DNA of 51,943 bases from the NCBI GenBank assembly GCA_028818755.1, contig JAPPNF010000092.1:1-51943 (forward strand), written 5' to 3'. A program made the position numbers and the translations under genes. The stretch is from Deltaproteobacteria bacterium (GTDB lineage Bacteria > Desulfobacterota > Binatia > UBA9968 > JAJDTQ01). Below the pieces are notes generated by a model. It did not search any database, was not told the DNA's origin, and saw only the letters and a list, made by a program, of their open reading frames with translations. Positions 8,338-51,943 of this stretch are shown in pieces. Position 1 is the stretch's first letter. Every line of letters begins with the position of its first letter.

Positions 8338-9813
8338 ATGGCTTTTGAGGCCTTCCTCGAGGCCCTCGGCACCACCTTCACCCTGCCGGTGCTGGGCGGG
8401 ATCCTGCTGGGGGTTGCGCTGGGGCTCGTTTTCGGCGCGGTGCCGGGCCTGAATGCGGTGCTCGGCATCGTGCTGCTGCTCCCGTTCGTCTGGAGCCTGT
8501 CGCCCTTCGTGGCGTTCGCGATCATGCTGTCGCTGGTGTCGGCGGTCCACACCTCCAACACCTTCCCGGCGTTCTTCTTCAACGTGCCCGGCAGCCCCAG
8601 CGCCGCCGCCACCATCCTGGACGGTTACCCCATGGCGCGCAACGGCGATGCCGCGCGCGGGTTGACCGCGGCCTTCGTGGTGTCCGCCGTGGGCGGGATC
8701 ATCGGCGCGCTGGTGTTGCTGATCGCGCTGCCGGCCTTGCAGCCGGTGGTGCTGGCCTTCGCCGCGCCGGAGCGCTTCATGCTGGTGGTGCTGGGGATCC
8801 TCATGATCAGCTTCCTGAGCGGCGTCAAGCCGGTGAAGGGGCTGATGGCGGGCGCCCTGGGCCTTTGGCTGGGCACCGTCGGGCAGGATCCGCAACTGGG
8901 GGTGGCGCGGTTCACCTTCGGCTCCGACTACCTGCTCGACGGGCTTCAGACCGTGCCCATCATCATGGGCCTGTTCGCCCTCCCCGAGGTGGTGTCCCTG
9001 GCCATCCGCGGGCGCATCGCCGAACGCACCCACGTGGACATGGGCGAGGGGTTCCGGCCGGGCCTGCGGGCGTGTCTGGCGAACCGCTGGCTGGTGGTGC
9101 GGAGCGCGGTGGTGGGCGTGGTGGGAGGCGCCATCCCGGGCATCGGCGGCACCGCGGCGGCATTCTACGCCTACGGGATGGCGGTCCAGGGAACCGACGG
9201 CGCCGAGCGCGGGCGCTTCGGCAAGGGCGAGATCAAGGGCGTGATCGCGCCCGAGAGCGCCAACAACTCATCGGCGGGCGGAGAGCTGGTGCCGTTGCTG
9301 GCGTTCGGCGTGCCCGGCGGCGCCACCTCGGCCATCCTGCTGGCCGCATTCCTGATCCTCGGCATCAATCCCGGCCCGGAGATGCTGGGCGAGAAGCTCT
9401 CGCTGAGCTTCTCCATGGTCATCGTGCTGGTGCTCTCGAACCTGCTGGCCACCGGCGTATGCATCGCCATCACGCGGCCGGCCGCGCGCATCGCTTTCCT
9501 CAGGAGCAACCTGCTGATCCCGGCGCTGATGCTGTTCGTGCTGTTCGGCGCGTACGTCGCCTATCCCCATCCCTACACCCTCGTTCTCACGCTGGCATTC
9601 GGGGTGCTGGGCTACCTGATGATGCGGTTCGACTGGGCGCGGGCGCCGCTGCTGGTGGGTTTCATCCTGGGTCCGCTGGCCGAGAACAACCTGGTCATCT
9701 CCCTGTCGAGCTACGGCGCGGCCTTCCTCGTCCGGCCCATTCCGCTGGGGTGCATGGCGGTCATGGCGCTGGTGGTTTTCGTGGCGGTGCGCCGGGGGGT
9801 GGGCCGGCCATGA
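8338..9813 (+). CDS. tctA: Tripartite tricarboxylate transporter large permease (TctA)
   Basis: 491 aa from ATG 8338 (a GTG at 8302 falls inside a hairpin and is rejected). Starts MAFEAFLEALGTTFTLPVLGG and runs through roughly ten to twelve hydrophobic segments. Family motifs include LVFGAVPGLNAVLGIVLLLPF, VPGSPSAAATILDGYPMA, PGIGGTAAAFYAYGMAVQ, PESANNSSAGGELVPLLAFGVPG (cut here to the recognisable part) and GFILGPLAENNL. It is the main membrane channel of a cation-driven secondary carboxylate importer. It overlaps tctB by four bases (ATGA), so both membrane subunits are made together. Confidence 0.92.
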   Translation: MAFEAFLEALGTTFTLPVLGGILLGVALGLVFGAVPGLNAVLGIVLLLPFVWSLSPFVAFAIMLSLVSAVHTSNTFPAFFFNVPGSPSAAATILDGYPMARNGDAARGLTAAFVVSAVGGIIGALVLLIALPALQPVVLAFAAPERFMLVVLGILMISFLSGVKPVKGLMAGALGLWLGTVGQDPQLGVARFTFGSDYLLDGLQTVPIIMGLFALPEVVSLAIRGRIAERTHVDMGEGFRPGLRACLANRWLVVRSAVVGVVGGAIPGIGGTAAAFYAYGMAVQGTDGAERGRFGKGEIKGVIAPESANNSSAGGELVPLLAFGVPGGATSAILLAAFLILGINPGPEMLGEKLSLSFSMVIVLVLSNLLATGVCIAITRPAARIAFLRSNLLIPALMLFVLFGAYVAYPHPYTLVLTLAFGVLGYLMMRFDWARAPLLVGFILGPLAENNLVISLSSYGAAFLVRPIPLGCMAVMALVVFVAVRRGVGRP

Positions 9814-46269: not shown

Positions 46270-48063
46270 TCAATGTGGGTCAAAGGAGGCGTCAGACTCC
46301 CGTATGGTGATAATTCCGGCACCATTCGTATCGTCGGCCAACTGCTGCGCGATCCCATGTTCGTAGGTCGTCACCAAGAGTTGACGGGGAGAGCCACCAA
46401 CGGTGGCTGTGGCCAGGGTTGCCGCGACAGCGTGGCGCAGTTGGGGATCGAGGTGTTCTAGGGGTTCGTCGAACCACGCGAAGGGAAGGGAGGTCGTGGT
46501 TGCAATGACGATCAAGTGGGTAACGATTCTGGCCCACGTGCGTTCCCCACCGCTGAGCGTGTCCCATCCTAGCTCCTCATCGCCTCGAAGCCGCGTGATC
46601 GACCCGTCGGGCCTGAAAGTGAGGCCGTTATTTGTAAACAGATGCTTCCAACGCGCTCGCACTTCACTCGCCAGTGGCTCGATGCGAGATTCGATCACAT
46701 GATTCGCCGCCTCTGACAGTACCCTTGCTCCGGCAAATGCAGCGGCTTCCCGTCGATATGCCAGCCGGAGATGTCGCTCCTCCTGCAGGATCTGGTCATC
46801 CGTGGCAATTTGGGCCTTCAACGACTCCAGGCGGGACTGCATTCCGCCAAGCTGCTGGTTGTGTTCGTCAAGAGCAGCGCTCGCCTGTTGGTACAAGGCT
46901 TCGGCTGCAGCTCGGGTGGGTACATTGTCTACCCCGGCGTCGATACTCGGAGGCTGTAACGCGTCCAGTTGGGCGAGCAACTTCGAAACCGCGTTTGCGT
47001 GCGTATGCCTTGCGGCGCGAGTCTCTTCAAGGCGTCTCGCCTCCATCTGTGCATCTGCCCGTTGTGTCCTATGTGCCGATATCGCCGACAAACGCTGATG
47101 AGAAGGAAGCGGGCGCAGACAGGTCGGACAGACCGTGTGGTCTCTGTCGAGTAACCTAACTGCCTGTTCGGCAACAGTGATGACAGAACGTGCGGTGATT
47201 GCGCCTTCTGTCATTTCGGCAACTGCGCGTTCAGACTTCTCCAATTCTGTACGCAATTCGGAGCTGATCGACTCCTTAGTATCAGAGGCTACCGGTCGAC
47301 CGAGTAGATCCTCAATAGTGGCCAGCAGACGAGAGCGTTGCTGTTCATACCGTTCCAATTGACCCGCAAGGGCGAGGTGCCGTTCGACCAAAGACCGTTG
47401 CGCGGCAGCAGAGTCACGAACTTGCTCAAGTTCTGTGCCGCGTTGCTTGAGATGTGTAATCTGTGCTTCTAGTCCAGCGATCTCACCCTCTAGCACAGCC
47501 CGAGTCTCCATGCGTTGTCTGGTCGTCGACCGGAGTACCGCTCGTGCCTTCTCTGCCTCTTTGGCAACCGACTGAGCAGTCTGGGCCACGCCAAGCAGGT
47601 GGGTAACGCCGAAAGCGTGATGGAGGTGGCCTTCAAGACTAAGAGTGTCATTAGCTGCGATGTGACCGCCGCCCAACATCATTGACAGACGACTGGCTAC
47701 AGGGAGTTCTATCCTTAATGCTTGTTCCATTTCTGTTAGAGCCGAACTCTCGGTTAACCTCGTGCCGTTCATTTCGTATGTCGCTGTGGGGGCACCGCGT
47801 CGCCTTGCAGCCCGACGGATGTTGAATCGGCGTCCATCGGGGAGGTCGAACTCGACCTGGACCTCCGCGCCTTCTGCGCCAGCTCGGATGCAAGCCCTTG
47901 GGTCGACGTTACTGTGCCCCCCGAACACAGCCCAAGCGAGTCCGTACACAAGCGATGTTTTCCCCACCCCGTTGGGGGCGACGACGAAGGTCGTGCCGGG
48001 ATTGAGCCGTAGGTCGAGGTCTTCGTAAGATCGCCAGTTGCGGAGGTGGATTCGATGAATCAT
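46270..48063 (-). CDS. SMC/Rad50-like AAA ATPase with zinc-hook motif
   Basis: 597 aa from ATG 48063, overlapping the upstream stop as ATGA. Walker A APNGVGKTSLV (residues 29-39) lies in MIHRIHLRNWRSYEDLDLRL, the Rad50/RecF-type opening. Then long coiled coils (about 165-300 and 330-440) flank a CPTC zinc-hook (Cys312, Cys315). Signature motif LSGGERTWARI is at 503-513 and Walker B LPFAWFDEPLEHLD has Asp532-Glu533. DNA-end or chromatin-type ATPase; such proteins power several anti-phage systems. No Mre11-type nuclease is adjacent, so the partner is likely the 300-aa protein upstream. Confidence 0.88.
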   Translation of the reverse strand: MIHRIHLRNWRSYEDLDLRLNPGTTFVVAPNGVGKTSLVYGLAWAVFGGHSNVDPRACIRAGAEGAEVQVEFDLPDGRRFNIRRAARRRGAPTATYEMNGTRLTESSALTEMEQALRIELPVASRLSMMLGGGHIAANDTLSLEGHLHHAFGVTHLLGVAQTAQSVAKEAEKARAVLRSTTRQRMETRAVLEGEIAGLEAQITHLKQRGTELEQVRDSAAAQRSLVERHLALAGQLERYEQQRSRLLATIEDLLGRPVASDTKESISSELRTELEKSERAVAEMTEGAITARSVITVAEQAVRLLDRDHTVCPTCLRPLPSHQRLSAISAHRTQRADAQMEARRLEETRAARHTHANAVSKLLAQLDALQPPSIDAGVDNVPTRAAAEALYQQASAALDEHNQQLGGMQSRLESLKAQIATDDQILQEERHLRLAYRREAAAFAGARVLSEAANHVIESRIEPLASEVRARWKHLFTNNGLTFRPDGSITRLRGDEELGWDTLSGGERTWARIVTHLIVIATTTSLPFAWFDEPLEHLDPQLRHAVAATLATATVGGSPRQLLVTTYEHGIAQQLADDTNGAGIITIRESDASFDPH

Positions 48064-48962
48064 GCGGCTTTCCCGACGACTTCACCCAATCGGGCCTCGT
48101 AGTCTTCCGCGGAGAGTCGTCCGTGTTGAGCCTCCTGAACAATGGCAGCCAACCATTGCGCCTCCTGATCTCCAAAATCTGTCCAAGTGGCCTGCTTGGC
48201 TTCAATTCTAGCTCGGGCACCGGCCGTGGATACTTCGGTTACTACCCCGGTTGCCAACCGGTAAGGATCCAAGGCCGATGCGGGACCAGTGGCGGGATCA
48301 AGGAGATCAGTGCTCATGGGCTCGAATTCGGGTATCATGCTCCTTAGCCACGCCTCACATGTCGTACGAGCGTCGGCGATCGAACGCCGCAGACGAGGCG
48401 GCCGTCTCTCGCCCGATGGTGTTTCAATGGCTCGATAGACGTCACCCCGGTCCACTACCACTGCTAGGGGTTCTTGTCCTGTGGTGGTGTAGAGGACCGC
48501 ATGGGAGTCAGGAAAGGCACTGAACACCTTGGCGATCTCTTCGGCCCTGTTGTTGAGGGCGTGTTCCAGATTCGATGAAGTGGTTTCCGGTACGACCCGA
48601 ATACGCAGGCCTCGGGCCTGGATCACCAAGGTCGAAGCCAGCCCAACCGCTGTCGAAGCAGCATCCGGCGTGACTAAGGCTCTTTGATCAACTGTGAAGC
48701 GCAGATGGTCCTGGAGTGCTTCGCCGAGATCGCTAGCTCGGTCGCTCTTAGAGGCCCAAGTGGCCACGAGTTGTTCGATCGACGGTCTGGAAGCGTAGGG
48801 ATCTACCCCGTGCGCTGCCGTGATCGATTCGATGAAGGCTGCAGCTGTTCGGCGCTGTCGTTCCGGCAGATCCTCGAGTGCGGGTGGCTCGTCGCGGTCG
48901 CCCTCCAAATAGTCCAAATAAGCCTCTCGGAACTTTCTGAGATGGTCATCCTTGGTACTCAT
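48060..48962 (-). CDS. Unrecognised 300-aa protein coupled to the SMC-like ATPase
   Basis: 300 aa from ATG 48962 after AAAGGAGGAAC. I do not recognise a family. The N-terminus is acidic and helical (FREAYLDYLEGDRDEPPALE, then AAFIESITAAHGVDPYASRP). A middle region predicts beta strands (GLRIRVVPETTSSNLEHALN, AVLYTTTGQEPLAVVVDRGD). C-terminal helices follow (ACEAW-like, AQWLAAIVQEAQ). No signal peptide, membrane helix, Cys-rich motif or nuclease signature seen. The four-base overlap with the ATPase gene implies a protein partnership, perhaps a substrate adaptor or effector. Confidence 0.75.
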   Translation of the reverse strand: MSTKDDHLRKFREAYLDYLEGDRDEPPALEDLPERQRRTAAAFIESITAAHGVDPYASRPSIEQLVATWASKSDRASDLGEALQDHLRFTVDQRALVTPDAASTAVGLASTLVIQARGLRIRVVPETTSSNLEHALNNRAEEIAKVFSAFPDSHAVLYTTTGQEPLAVVVDRGDVYRAIETPSGERRPPRLRRSIADARTTCEAWLRSMIPEFEPMSTDLLDPATGPASALDPYRLATGVVTEVSTAGARARIEAKQATWTDFGDQEAQWLAAIVQEAQHGRLSAEDYEARLGEVVGKAA

Positions 48963-48998: not shown

Positions 48999-49655
48999 TC
49001 ACTTGAAGGGATAGTCGGGGTGGGCTTCAAGCGTACGTAGAGCGGCATTGTAGATTTGGCCGATCCGCTGGCTGGTCAAGCCAAGTCGCTCACCGACCTC
49101 CTTACGACTGCACATACGGAAGTGAATCTCAAAGAAGATCTCTCGGTCTTGGTCACTGAGAGCCTCTCGGGCGAGGTCGCGTAGCTGGAGCACGTTTCGT
49201 AGCATGAAGTATTCGGCCTCTGGGTCACCCCAATCACTGGGAAGCGATTCGAATAACGCTGGTTCCGTTGCACCGTCTGGGCCGTCCGGTTCAAGGTCGC
49301 CCGACACTAGGTACAGTTGGGGTCGATGGTCAGTACCGCGTAGACCTTTGTTGGAAGCCTTGAGTGCATCGATTGCCTTGTATCCAGCGATGGATACTGC
49401 CAAGCCCTCCCATGTGCCCTCAAGGCGCTCTGGCGGGTACTGAAGGAGACCGAGCAGCGCTTCTGACAGTACGTCGTCCGCACTGACTGCAGTACTCACC
49501 AGAATGCGTTCCTGTTTATCCTTTGAGCGCTGTCCGCGTGTCCCAAAGAGGGTCTTGTGGATCTTCGCGTACATGACGTCAAGGATTCTTTCGAGACGCT
49601 CTCTGTCCTCTAGGAGTGGGTGCTCGGAAGCGGATGCCTGTGAAACGGATGCCAT
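48999..49655 (-). CDS. Sigma-70-family RNA polymerase sigma factor (ECF-like)
   Basis: 218 aa from ATG 49655; the in-frame extension to 49766 is rejected as it would run across the divergent promoter region. Region 2 is seen around ADDVLSEALLGLLQYPPERL and VSIAGYKAIDALKASNKG; region 4 HTH is DQDREIFFEIHFRMCSRKEV followed by GERLGLTSQRIGQIYNAALR. No anti-sigma gene is adjacent. Starts its operon 110 bp from the divergent ubiquitin-like gene, so it may control both units. Alternative: an HTH sigma-like regulator that no longer directs polymerase. Confidence 0.8.
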   Translation of the reverse strand: MASVSQASASEHPLLEDRERLERILDVMYAKIHKTLFGTRGQRSKDKQERILVSTAVSADDVLSEALLGLLQYPPERLEGTWEGLAVSIAGYKAIDALKASNKGLRGTDHRPQLYLVSGDLEPDGPDGATEPALFESLPSDWGDPEAEYFMLRNVLQLRDLAREALSDQDREIFFEIHFRMCSRKEVGERLGLTSQRIGQIYNAALRTLEAHPDYPFK

Positions 49656-49765
49656 TTTCACCCTTATTGTCGCAAACGGAGCCAAAACTGAAAATCGGTG
49701 CCTTTCGTTTTCACTGCAGCGGGGAATCTCGACAGACCTTGTAGACCCCTCGAAAGGAGAGACCA

Positions 49766-50020
49766 TTGACCGAGAACATCGAAAAGATCCGCCGCCGCAT
49801 CCCGTTCACCATCGACGGGCAACCCTTCACCACCGACGACCTCAGCCAGCGTGCCTCGGCGCTTCTGAATCTGGCTGGATTGGATCCTGCCACCTTCGAC
49901 CTAGGGGAACTCGTCGGAAAGGAGCACCCTCAGACGAAGCGTTTCGCCGATGAGGAGATCGTCTCCATAGTTAAGGACGCGCGGTTCATATCGATCCGTC
50001 AGAGCGCACCTGTCGCCTAA
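49766..50020 (+). CDS. Ubiquitin-like protein (multiubiquitin-family, single domain)
   Basis: 84 aa from TTG 49766, chosen because AAAGGAGA lies just upstream and it is the only start giving the domain. The domain RRIPFTIDGQPFTTDDLSQR, ALLNLAGLDPATFDLGELVG, ADEEIVSIVKDARFISIRQS fits the beta-grasp pattern of prokaryotic multiubiquitin proteins. It is a single domain, not a tandem, and the tail ends SAPVA, so no Gly-Gly is present at the C-terminus. It is followed by a stop/start overlap (TAATG) into the E2 gene. The modifier is thought to be joined to targets by the E1 and E2 encoded next. Confidence 0.78.
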   Translation: MTENIEKIRRRIPFTIDGQPFTTDDLSQRASALLNLAGLDPATFDLGELVGKEHPQTKRFADEEIVSIVKDARFISIRQSAPVA

Positions 50021-50367
50021 TGAAAACGGGTGTCGAAGCGTTCATCCAGGACGTGACAGAACTCGGCTGTGATCCGACGCTCGACGCCGATCTGGTCATA
50101 TACAAAGTTGTGGCCGTCGACGGTGCCTACGCTGGAAGGCCAGTGGATACTGCTGTCGGTATTAACGAGCTAGAGCCGTGGCCTCAGGTACCTCCGCACT
50201 GGCTTCATTTTCCTGCTGGCGTAAGGTTCTCCCGCACCAACAGCCAACTCTCTCCCAAGTCTGGATGGTTAATGCACAGCCGCCAGATAACCGGGTGGGG
50301 CGACGCGCCGGCTGGAGTCGCGTGGGTGAGCCATGTCCGCGCAGTCCTCAGTGGGGCGGTTGCGTGA
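50020..50367 (+). CDS. Prokaryotic E2-like (family E) protein
   Basis: 115 aa from ATG 50020, whose A overlaps the Ubl stop. The order is an N-terminal helix, strands with LVIYKVVAVDG, then PWPQVPPHWLHFPAGVRF (the P-P turn of UBC folds) and SGWLMHSRQITGWGD, matching the Prok-E2_E pattern. The only cysteine is Cys17, in the N-terminal helix; no Cys is visible where the E2 active site would lie. Thus it may act as a scaffold, use a different residue or belong to a degenerate branch. Its stop TGA overlaps the next ATG. Confidence 0.72.
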   Translation: MKTGVEAFIQDVTELGCDPTLDADLVIYKVVAVDGAYAGRPVDTAVGINELEPWPQVPPHWLHFPAGVRFSRTNSQLSPKSGWLMHSRQITGWGDAPAGVAWVSHVRAVLSGAVA

Positions 50368-51878
50368 TGCGTAGAACGTCGGTGGCGATGACTGCGACGA
50401 CCGAGGAGGAGCTCGTCCGCCGACTCGTTCGCGACGATGGTCAAGAGGACATTTGTCTCGCCACATACCGGCCCTCCACCGGACTCACCCGTTTCAGCGC
50501 CCTTGTTCGCGCGGTTGTCCCGCCTGAGCCTGGGGATCGACTCGTCCACGGAAATGCCACCGTGACGGCCGATTACATCTTGCGGGGCGCCGAAACAGCC
50601 CAGGAAGATGGCTGCGGCTTGGTCCTCCTTCACAGCCACCCCGGCGCCAGTCAGTGGCAGCCAATGAGTGGCCCGGACCGTGATTGCGAGGCCAGCTACG
50701 CCAACCTCGTCCGTGAAATCACAGGACTTCCTCTGGTTGGCATGACCCTTGCCACAAGAAATTGCACATGGTCAGCTCGCCATTGGGACATTGGAGTCGG
50801 ACGAGCGGTCGACTGTACTCACTGCACGAACGTCCGGGTCATCGGCGACAAGTTCGTGATATCGTGGAACGACGCAGTCCAGCCACCTCCACGGCCCGGC
50901 AGCAGTCAGAGTAGGACCGTAAGCGCCTGGGGCGACCGGCACCAAGCTGATCTTGTTCGCCGGAGAGTCCTCGTGGTGGGTGCGGGTAGTGTCGGACTCG
51001 ATGTCTTTGTGCGTCTCGCCGCATCCGGGTTGCGCCAGTTGACAGTGATGGATTTTGATGTGGTTGAGGTCCGCAACCTAGACCGGCTTATTGGCGCGAC
51101 ACCTCGCGATGCACATCTGAGGCGGCCTAAGGTTCACGTTGCCAGCCGGGAAGCAACAGCGGCAGCTACTGCGCACTACTGCAGTGTCGAGCTTTCAGAC
51201 CGGTCCATCTGTGAACCTGAAGGATTACGGCTGGCACTCGATCACGACTTGGTTTTCTCTTGCGTCGACCGTTCTTGGCCGCGCGCTGTACTCAACTCTT
51301 TGGCCTACTCGGACCTCATACCCGTCATTGATGGGGGCATTGCCATTGATACCTTCGATAGCGGAGAGATGCGCAACGCTACTTGGCGGTCTCATGTTGT
51401 CAGGCCACGGCGACCGTGCATGAGTTGTAACCGGCAACTCGACCTCGGCACGGTCGCCCTCGAACGTCAAGGGCTGCTCCGTGATCCTGCTTACATCCAG
51501 GGAGCACGGGAGAGCCGTAGGCCAGTCAACCCCAACGTGGCGCCGCTCTCGGTAAGCGTTGCGGCGAGCATGCTTGCCCAATACGTGAGCTTTAACGTGG
51601 CTCCGAGTGGGCTTGGCGATCCCGGTCCACTCCAATACGCGTTCAGCACCCATTACCTTGAGCGCCGCAATGACGCTACGAGCGTGCACTGCGCCACAGA
51701 AGCTGCGGAAGGCGCTGGCGATCATCGTGTCTGTCTGACGGGCCCTCACGAAGACGCGGAACGACAACGACAACTTTCAGGGTCGGTGGGAGTCAGCATT
51801 CGCCTTCTGCGTTGGGTCGACGAACGTGCTCAAGCGGTAACGAGGTGGTTGGACCACCTCGTGGGTCAAAACCTCTAA
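50367..51878 (+). CDS. JAB/JAMM peptidase fused to an E1-like ThiF adenylyltransferase
   Basis: 503 aa from ATG 50367 (TGATG overlap with E2); an in-frame ATG at 50388 is a possible later start. N-terminal JAB domain: HSHPGASQWQPMSGPD gives JAMM residues His89, His91, Ser101 and Asp104, with Glu54 a candidate acid. From about 195 the E1-type ThiF domain: VLVVGAGSVGLDVFVRLAAS, acidic MDFDVVEVRNLDRL with Arg240, Lys255 in RRPKV, Asp301 in CVDRSWPR and Cys pair CMSC (351, 354). One protein thus activates the modifier with ATP and may trim or remove it. Lower GC than the window core. Confidence 0.88.
   Translation: MRRTSVAMTATTEEELVRRLVRDDGQEDICLATYRPSTGLTRFSALVRAVVPPEPGDRLVHGNATVTADYILRGAETAQEDGCGLVLLHSHPGASQWQPMSGPDRDCEASYANLVREITGLPLVGMTLATRNCTWSARHWDIGVGRAVDCTHCTNVRVIGDKFVISWNDAVQPPPRPGSSQSRTVSAWGDRHQADLVRRRVLVVGAGSVGLDVFVRLAASGLRQLTVMDFDVVEVRNLDRLIGATPRDAHLRRPKVHVASREATAAATAHYCSVELSDRSICEPEGLRLALDHDLVFSCVDRSWPRAVLNSLAYSDLIPVIDGGIAIDTFDSGEMRNATWRSHVVRPRRPCMSCNRQLDLGTVALERQGLLRDPAYIQGARESRRPVNPNVAPLSVSVAASMLAQYVSFNVAPSGLGDPGPLQYAFSTHYLERRNDATSVHCATEAAEGAGDHRVCLTGPHEDAERQRQLSGSVGVSIRLLRWVDERAQAVTRWLDHLVGQNL
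51840..51862 (+). repeat. 10-bp hairpin at the end of the JAB-E1 coding region
   Basis: ACGAGGTGGT and ACCACCTCGT enclose TGG, 14 bases before the stop codon. It is inside the gene; it may slow 3' decay or be chance. Confidence 0.45.
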
Positions 51879-51899
51879 TTCAAACTCTTGAGCCTCTTG

Positions 51900-51927
51900 C
51901 AAAACCCATCGGGTGAGGGGGATTTTG
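51900..51927. repeat. Imperfect stem after the JAB-E1 gene, near the window edge
   Basis: CAAAACCC pairs imperfectly with GGGGGATTTTG. This could be a terminator or the edge of a mobile element; the window ends 16 bases later, so it cannot be decided. Confidence 0.35.
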
Positions 51928-51943
51928 TAGACGTGGGGTCGTT

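Follow-up and report, generated by a model that had tools for sequence, protein, structure and literature searches.

Bacterial ubiquitin-like conjugation operons of the Bil type possess a separate deubiquitinase (DUB) gene and a canonical E2 with a catalytic cysteine, whereas the Bub E2 studied by Ye et al. reportedly has no catalytic cysteine and uses oxyester chemistry. Adjacent controllers are a habit of Bub operons: according to the available excerpts of PMC13373217, 219 of 544 adjoin CapW or CapH+CapP and 59 adjoin CapK+CapS, and these controllers respond to single-stranded DNA (ssDNA) or DNA damage. Calp of type III CRISPR, as presented in excerpts of PMC12751052, comprises a sensor, an anti-sigma factor and a sigma factor that yield a transcriptional response to infection. 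Another gene set is found in the window, i.e., the whole 51,943-nucleotide stretch of Deltaproteobacteria bacterium contig JAPPNF010000092.1 (assembly GCA_028818755.1) analyzed here. It combines a ubiquitin-like protein (Ubl), an E2-like protein and a JAB-E1 fusion with a triad of genes for a sigma factor, a 300-residue protein (U300) and a Rad50-like ATPase. The reading favored here, with some reserve, is that a Bub-like cassette is placed under its own autoregulated sigma factor, which is gated by U300 and the ATPase. Sigma control of both operons is highly probable judging from the sequence; the chances of gating by U300 and the ATPase on a DNA signal are evenly poised. The features are as follows.

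46270-48063, minus strand: Rad50-like ABC/SMC ATPase with a zinc hook, 597 amino acids (aa), CPTC at residues 312-315
48060-48962, minus strand: U300, a 300-aa protein of no recognized family, proposed as a coupling or anti-sigma subunit
48999-49655, minus strand: sigma-70 factor resembling the extracytoplasmic function (ECF) group, 218 aa, start ATG 49655
49668-49693, minus strand: predicted sigma-dependent promoter of the sigma-U300-ATPase operon, TTTC-N17-CGACA, 12 bp ahead of the sigma ATG
49709-49734, plus strand: predicted sigma-dependent promoter of the Ubl-E2-E1 operon, TTTC-N17-CGACA, 31 bp ahead of the Ubl start
49766-50020, plus strand: single-domain Ubl, 84 aa, C-terminus ...SAPVA
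50020-50367, plus strand: E2-like protein, 115 aa, no conserved Cys, invariant His60 and Ser87-Arg88
50367-51878, plus strand: JAB (JAMM) deubiquitinase-like domain fused to an E1 (ThiF) domain, 503 aa

Evidence for sigma control is located between the sigma and Ubl genes, where two copies of TTTC-N17-CGACA are found, each oriented toward one gene; 0.30 matches would be expected in the window, which has 2. Nine loci possess the triad, the Ubl and both upstream regions, and the 160 bp ahead of sigma and of Ubl were taken from each. The exact element is present in 15 of these 18 regions and a relaxed form in all 18; ahead of Ubl it occurs in 9/9 loci (8 exact), tandem loci included. As a control, 146 regions upstream of other ORFs (open reading frames) in the same loci gave 0 exact and 0 relaxed matches. 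Spacer lengths other than 17 (range 10-25) gave 0 or 1 matches. CGACA precedes the sigma start by 8-13 bp in eight of the nine loci and by 77 bp in L010 with the start chosen. Cassettes devoid of the triad (19) carry no exact copy within 1.5 kb ahead of E1 on either strand, and no element is found in L067, where the ATPase gene lies directly ahead of Ubl. The host genome (4.9 Mb) contains 39 exact matches vs. 8 for the reversed pattern, and the single pair of matches less than 100 bp apart is the window's own. A wider regulon in the host was considered and is not claimed. The element shared by the Ubl and sigma upstream regions thus lends sequence-level support to the idea, raised in the original prediction, that the island has its own sigma factor.

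Alternatively, the element could be a repressor operator or a structural repeat. For divergent loci, this would make the pair of copies an inverted repeat, and by eye the copies there do form an imperfect palindrome, one facing the other. This explanation is very unlikely in view of the tandem loci L011 and L027, where each gene has its own copy in the same orientation and the copies are separated by more than 2 kb; the spacer of 17 bp and the 11-13 bp that remain before the sigma ATG amount to -35/-10 geometry. The same tandem loci fix the orientation of the element; the opposite reading, TGTCG (-35)/GAAA (-10), was rejected, since L011 and L027 carry the element toward the gene solely as TTTC-N17-CGACA.

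All six ORFs are open at the positions originally predicted (ORF list and sequence check). The operon of Ubl, E2-like and JAB-E1 genes with TAATG (Ubl/E2) and TGATG (E2/E1) overlaps was found in the sequence as had been described, and the coordinates add an ATGA overlap at U300/ATPase. The divergent sigma, 300-aa and Rad50/SMC-like genes likewise agree with the coordinates and with Pfam SMC_N and Sigma70_r4, the sigma ATG and the TTG start of Ubl being 110 bp apart. The 255-aa version of the sigma ORF is probably too long, and 218 aa is preferred, since the start codon of the former lies beyond both promoter elements and ATG 49655 fits the elements and the relatives.

The same genes recur elsewhere. 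A scan of the genome collection for E1 gave 10 loci, and setting L017 aside (26% over 177 residues) left nine long relatives. All six genes are present in five of them (L008-L011 and L016; E1 identity 77-81%), whose hosts are three Caldilineaceae, a Gammaproteobacteria and a Thermoanaerobaculia metagenome-assembled genome (MAG). L008 lies within a 5.4-Mb single-contig chromosome, the ATPase of L010 is truncated by the contig end, and L011 has the order Ubl-E2-E1-sigma-U300-ATPase on one strand. The same six genes in the L011 order are carried by the M. avium plasmid pP7a; profiles built without pP7a score its U300 at 1.5e-16, ATPase at 5e-69, sigma at 1e-29 and Ubl at 6e-30. E1 matches occur in 84 plasmid records, and neighborhoods were examined for 10. 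Besides pP7a, one has a sigma factor, a 222-aa protein and an M78 peptidase ahead of the cassette, and eight have other neighbors.

Among 396 Actinomycetota genomes, U300 relatives were found in 8 (E up to 1e-3) and E1 relatives in 6 (E up to 1e-40). All six genes are present in one genome (G088); another (G453) has the triad and Ubl, E2 and E1 not being found. A third gene order is seen in G245 (L067 2558-5858), where ATPase, Ubl, E2 and E1 follow in one direction at the contig end. The 251 Chloroflexota genomes gave E1 in 4 and U300 in 2 (the seed G058 and a weak one at 5e-4); no triad was seen at the other three E1 loci. Counts for both phyla are possibly low, since scoring was limited to the top few candidates of each genome. 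The remaining four of the nine long relatives (L012-L015) have no sigma, U300 or ATPase match by BLAST, and L013 and L014 hold other sigma genes.

The recurrence of the same six genes across phyla is more than chance, and the observation is genuine rather than artefactual; as anticipated, the Bub-type cassette travels together with the sigma factor and the Rad50/SMC-like ATPase. On sequence evidence, this is a real association of two exchangeable modules, tight in the near clade and loose beyond it. The claim that the six genes form one unit is too strong as a general rule; all six are together in 5/9 long relatives. Finding the two halves apart in most relatives had been named as the outcome that would speak against it; they are apart outside the near clade, where four of the nine long relatives have no triad and the eight actinobacterial U300 genomes comprise one with the full cassette, one with Ubl alone and six with none in the stretch examined.

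The E1 tree has 24 rows (L017, L032, L035, L036 and L070 left out), and its triad label, which counts L067, where the ATPase alone is seen, takes three changes, the shuffled mean being 7.5 and 1 of 500 shuffles being as low. Here, as in the ATPase tree (16 rows), the six near loci group as a single supported clade; in the ATPase tree, the long branches L027 and L067 are uncertain in placement.

Several observations weigh against sigma control gated by U300 and the ATPase. Five of 100 shuffled windows also have at least two matches to the element, scattered across the window. The relaxed motif was defined after the sequences were seen, and it occurs twice in one of the 19 cassettes devoid of the triad (L034). 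The window, L008, L009 and L016 are close kin, so the 18 upstream regions are not 18 independent cases; L046 has CAACG instead of CGACA, and L027 has TTTA ahead of sigma. In the E1 tree, L012 and L013, which possess no triad, sit inside the triad-bearing clade. U300 has no recognized anti-sigma domain, and its weak fold match is to nucleases. Finally, the six actinobacterial genomes whose triads stand without a cassette in the stretch examined are none of the E1-bearing genomes, and with triads living without any cassette, the original job of the triad may lie elsewhere.

The stand-alone triads bear on another explanation, namely that the triad is a separate module for SMC-like DNA defence or repair, sigma-autoregulated and merely sharing the island with the cassette. 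Five of the six were tested for the element (L052 left out): ahead of their own sigma gene, the element is exact in one and relaxed in three, and L049 has neither form. The PADLOC family mad3, which matches the ATPase at 3e-21, fits such a module too. However, a separate module would leave unexplained the copies ahead of Ubl in all nine loci, tandem ones included, and the fact that none of the 19 cassettes without the triad has an exact copy within 1.5 kb ahead of E1. This explanation is therefore considered unlikely, and control of the cassette by the sigma factor is retained.

Triads composed of sigma, U300 and ATPase genes without a cassette are seen in L048-L053 of Actinomycetota; a gene resembling an ABC exporter is shared upstream of the triad in L050-L052 (by eye). 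L047 (2729-6644) possesses the triad and Ubl with both promoter elements, E2 and E1 not being found, and may reflect decay of the cassette or a different role of the Ubl.

The JAB-E1 protein is recognized by Pfam ThiF (8e-27) and by JAB at just 0.1, under the cut-off. Its best solved match is Citrobacter BubCD (3e-17, residues 16-353), spanning both the JAB and E1 domains, and all 14 aligned proteins share the JAMM-like residues H89, H91, S101 and D104. The Ubl and E2-like proteins of the window have no Pfam match. Multi_ubiq is found in six of nine aligned Ubls (E up to 1, the lowest being 5e-4), and the window's Ubl is 44-83% identical to eight relatives; the Ubl profile search recovered no Ubl of known structure. 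Prok-E2_E is matched by one of 19 E2-like proteins (E 0.046). These 19 proteins have no conserved Cys when aligned, and His60, Trp61, Ser87 and Arg88 are invariant.

The AlphaFold2 model of the E2-like protein (predicted local distance difference test score, pLDDT, 94.8) gave 307 Foldseek matches, none at E ≤0.001. The first is Citrobacter BubB (9eae_C; template modeling score, TM, 0.57/0.53, probability 0.89, E 0.16), and eukaryotic E2s (UbcH7, Ubc12) stand lower in the list amid other folds. Failure of hidden Markov model profiles for the Ubl and E2 had been named as another outcome that would speak against the original prediction; the profiles do fail for the window's own proteins, but the relatives and the E2 model speak for the Ubl and E2. 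On this sequence and model evidence, I take Ubl, E2-like and JAB-E1 as a diverged Bub-like conjugation cassette.

The likeness to Bub (Citrobacter BubCD and BubB; 9ea4, 9ea5, 9eae) consists of the JAB-E1 fusion, a BubB-like E2 fold, a Ubl in the same operon and adjacent controllers, the last being a habit of Bub in the excerpts of PMC13373217. The differences are that sequence searches with the window's E2-like and Ubl retrieve no Bub chain, and that the controller here is sigma-U300-ATPase, which those excerpts do not mention. Unlike Bil, the window has its JAB fused to E1 and an E2-like protein without a conserved Cys.

Irregular E1 genes were noted in related loci. The JAB-E1 gene of L012, in a Dehalococcoidia MAG, contains an in-frame stop at about 8517-8519, and in L070 (7146-11278) the E1 gene is split in two, with two IS21-type-like transposition genes between the pieces (by eye). 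Haloarchaeal plasmids (L035, hits H12-H14) possess distant E1-JAB relatives of 28-31% identity, with two small genes ahead of the one in L035.

The sigma factor is matched in region 4 by Pfam Sigma70_r4 (7e-6) and over residues 52-210 by NCBIfam sigma70-ECF (6e-9, under that model's cut-off). The ATPase is matched by Pfam SMC_N (1e-16) and AAA_23 (4e-14), and by Rad50_zn_hook at 0.002, under the cut-off. Its family profile finds Rad50 structures at 6e-18, together with the Rad50 zinc-hook structures 6zff and 1l8d, and the protein is short, with a single CPTC hook. The best 25 of 76 PADLOC families matching it include, besides mad3, LmuB (5e-13) and PtuA (9e-10). MADS, Lamassu and Septu were rejected as the home of the ATPase, the matches being at the ATPase level only; the other five proteins of the window have no MADS, Lamassu or Septu profile match in PADLOC.

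U300 matches no family above the cut-off in Pfam (sub-cut-off matches at 0.1 only), and NCBIfam and PADLOC give no match with E up to 1. Its model (pLDDT 76; predicted template modeling score, pTM, 0.46) is helical at both termini and alpha/beta in between; this middle domain has a weak match to a Holliday-junction-resolvase-like fold (E 0.012). Invariant residues in the alignment include R120, R122, D174, R193, R250, K256 and E267. Assignment as a colicin was rejected (Pfam 0.099, far under the cut-off), and so was an active nuclease, since the fold match is weak and the invariant residues do not resemble a nuclease site.

The resolvase-like middle domain and the tight linkage in the near clade would suit yet another explanation, in which the triad is a client or effector of the cassette: Ubl would be attached to one of the triad proteins (ATPase, U300 or sigma), and this tagging would toggle a DNA-targeting ATPase. 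Cassettes without the triad at many loci, triads without cassettes and invariant residues of U300 that show no nuclease active-site set argue to the contrary, and such a role is distinctly improbable. Gated sigma control is preferred to it.

The place beside the cassette is occupied by other genes in the long relatives devoid of the triad: an M78 gene (1e-13) and a helix-turn-helix (HTH) gene (3e-5, slightly under the cut-off) in L012, a weak sigma match with HTH and M78 in L013, a sigma factor with a 222-aa protein and M78 in L014, and HigB with HTH-M78 in L015. A second sigma-type controller is seen beside Ubl-E2-E1, in which a sigma factor (a weak match in the case of L013) is combined with an M78 (ImmA/IrrE) peptidase and a protein of 208-222 aa. 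Its loci are as follows.

L013, 5331-7146: second sigma-type controller
L014, 5021-7310: second sigma-type controller
L028, 4837-7072: second sigma-type controller

CapH+CapP, CapW/BrxR and CapK+CapS resemble the triad in that they adjoin an immune operon and control its transcription (PMC13373217, excerpts). They act through repressors; in the window, activation is predicted instead, by a sigma factor that has a promoter class to itself and is accompanied by a Rad50-like ATPase. Among the six proteins of the window, Pfam finds no M78 or HTH_3 match of the CapH+CapP kind. Calp (CalpL-CalpT-CalpS) sets a precedent for a sigma switch in immunity. It differs in its Lon-SAVED protease sensing cyclic tetra-adenylate (cA4), as given in the excerpts of PMC12751052, and Pfam finds no Lon or SAVED match among the six proteins.

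In the proposed mechanism, the sigma factor would bind the TTTC-N17-CGACA element, and once active it would raise expression of its own operon and activate the genes for Ubl, E2 and E1-JAB. Restraint of sigma would come from U300, whose gene directly follows that of sigma, together with the Rad50-like zinc-hook ATPase, and would last until the ATPase encounters abnormal DNA (ends, damage, or replicating phages or plasmids); the trigger would probably be DNA damage or infection. Sensing of DNA ends or damage by the ATPase, with U300 as the coupling or anti-sigma subunit, is suggested by the position of the triad, which elsewhere is often held by peptidase-based switches and by Cap controllers answering ssDNA or DNA damage. 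The E1 domain could then adenylate the C-terminus of Ubl and hand it via the E2-like protein to targets, Ser87 being a candidate nucleophile in the place of a conserved cysteine, and the JAB domain could remove or process Ubl. More tentatively than the gating itself, the triad may represent a new class of controller for immune operons, in which a dedicated ECF-like sigma factor has promoters of the TTTC-N17-CGACA class and is gated, via U300, by the Rad50-like zinc-hook ATPase. Such a controller would turn DNA-end or damage sensing into expression of Ubl conjugation and would also serve by itself as a regulatory module in Actinomycetota.

The six-gene region is probably an acquired island, as its G+C content (56-62%) deviates from that of 1-kb windows leftward (64-69%) and U300 was matched neither in 57 further genomes taken as relatives (8 of the same genus) nor in 246 more from the phylum. 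The contig stops 65 bp past the E1 gene, within a repeat. Copies of its last 55 bp (51889-51943), 95-100% identical, mark the ends of five other contigs and also lie within a sixth; the 55 bp are probably the end of a mobile repeat where the assembly broke, hiding the sequence beyond E1. A phage origin of the island was rejected, since no E1 match at E ≤1e-5 was found among 50,697 phage records and no E1 or U300 relative was confirmed in viral contigs, except for a short match to the U300 N-terminus in one of them. The protein in L019 (7758-8615), on a 141-kb viral contig, has a stretch in common with the U300 N-terminus (RGIDPY..RPS).

No sigma-Rad50-Ubl set appeared in the titles and opening lines of abstracts among the matches listed from the open-licence literature, a corpus without the main Bub papers, which is weak evidence of novelty. 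The Bub and CBASS (cyclic oligonucleotide-based antiphage signaling system) controllers in the excerpts of PMC13373217 act through repressors answering DNA damage. If the proposed mechanism is true, the island would represent activator-type control of a bacterial ubiquitin-like pathway and a transcriptional sensing role for a Rad50-like ATPase. The element makes sigma control directly testable, with one 110-bp region, one sigma gene and two predicted start sites, and it would offer a means to turn on the conjugation pathway.

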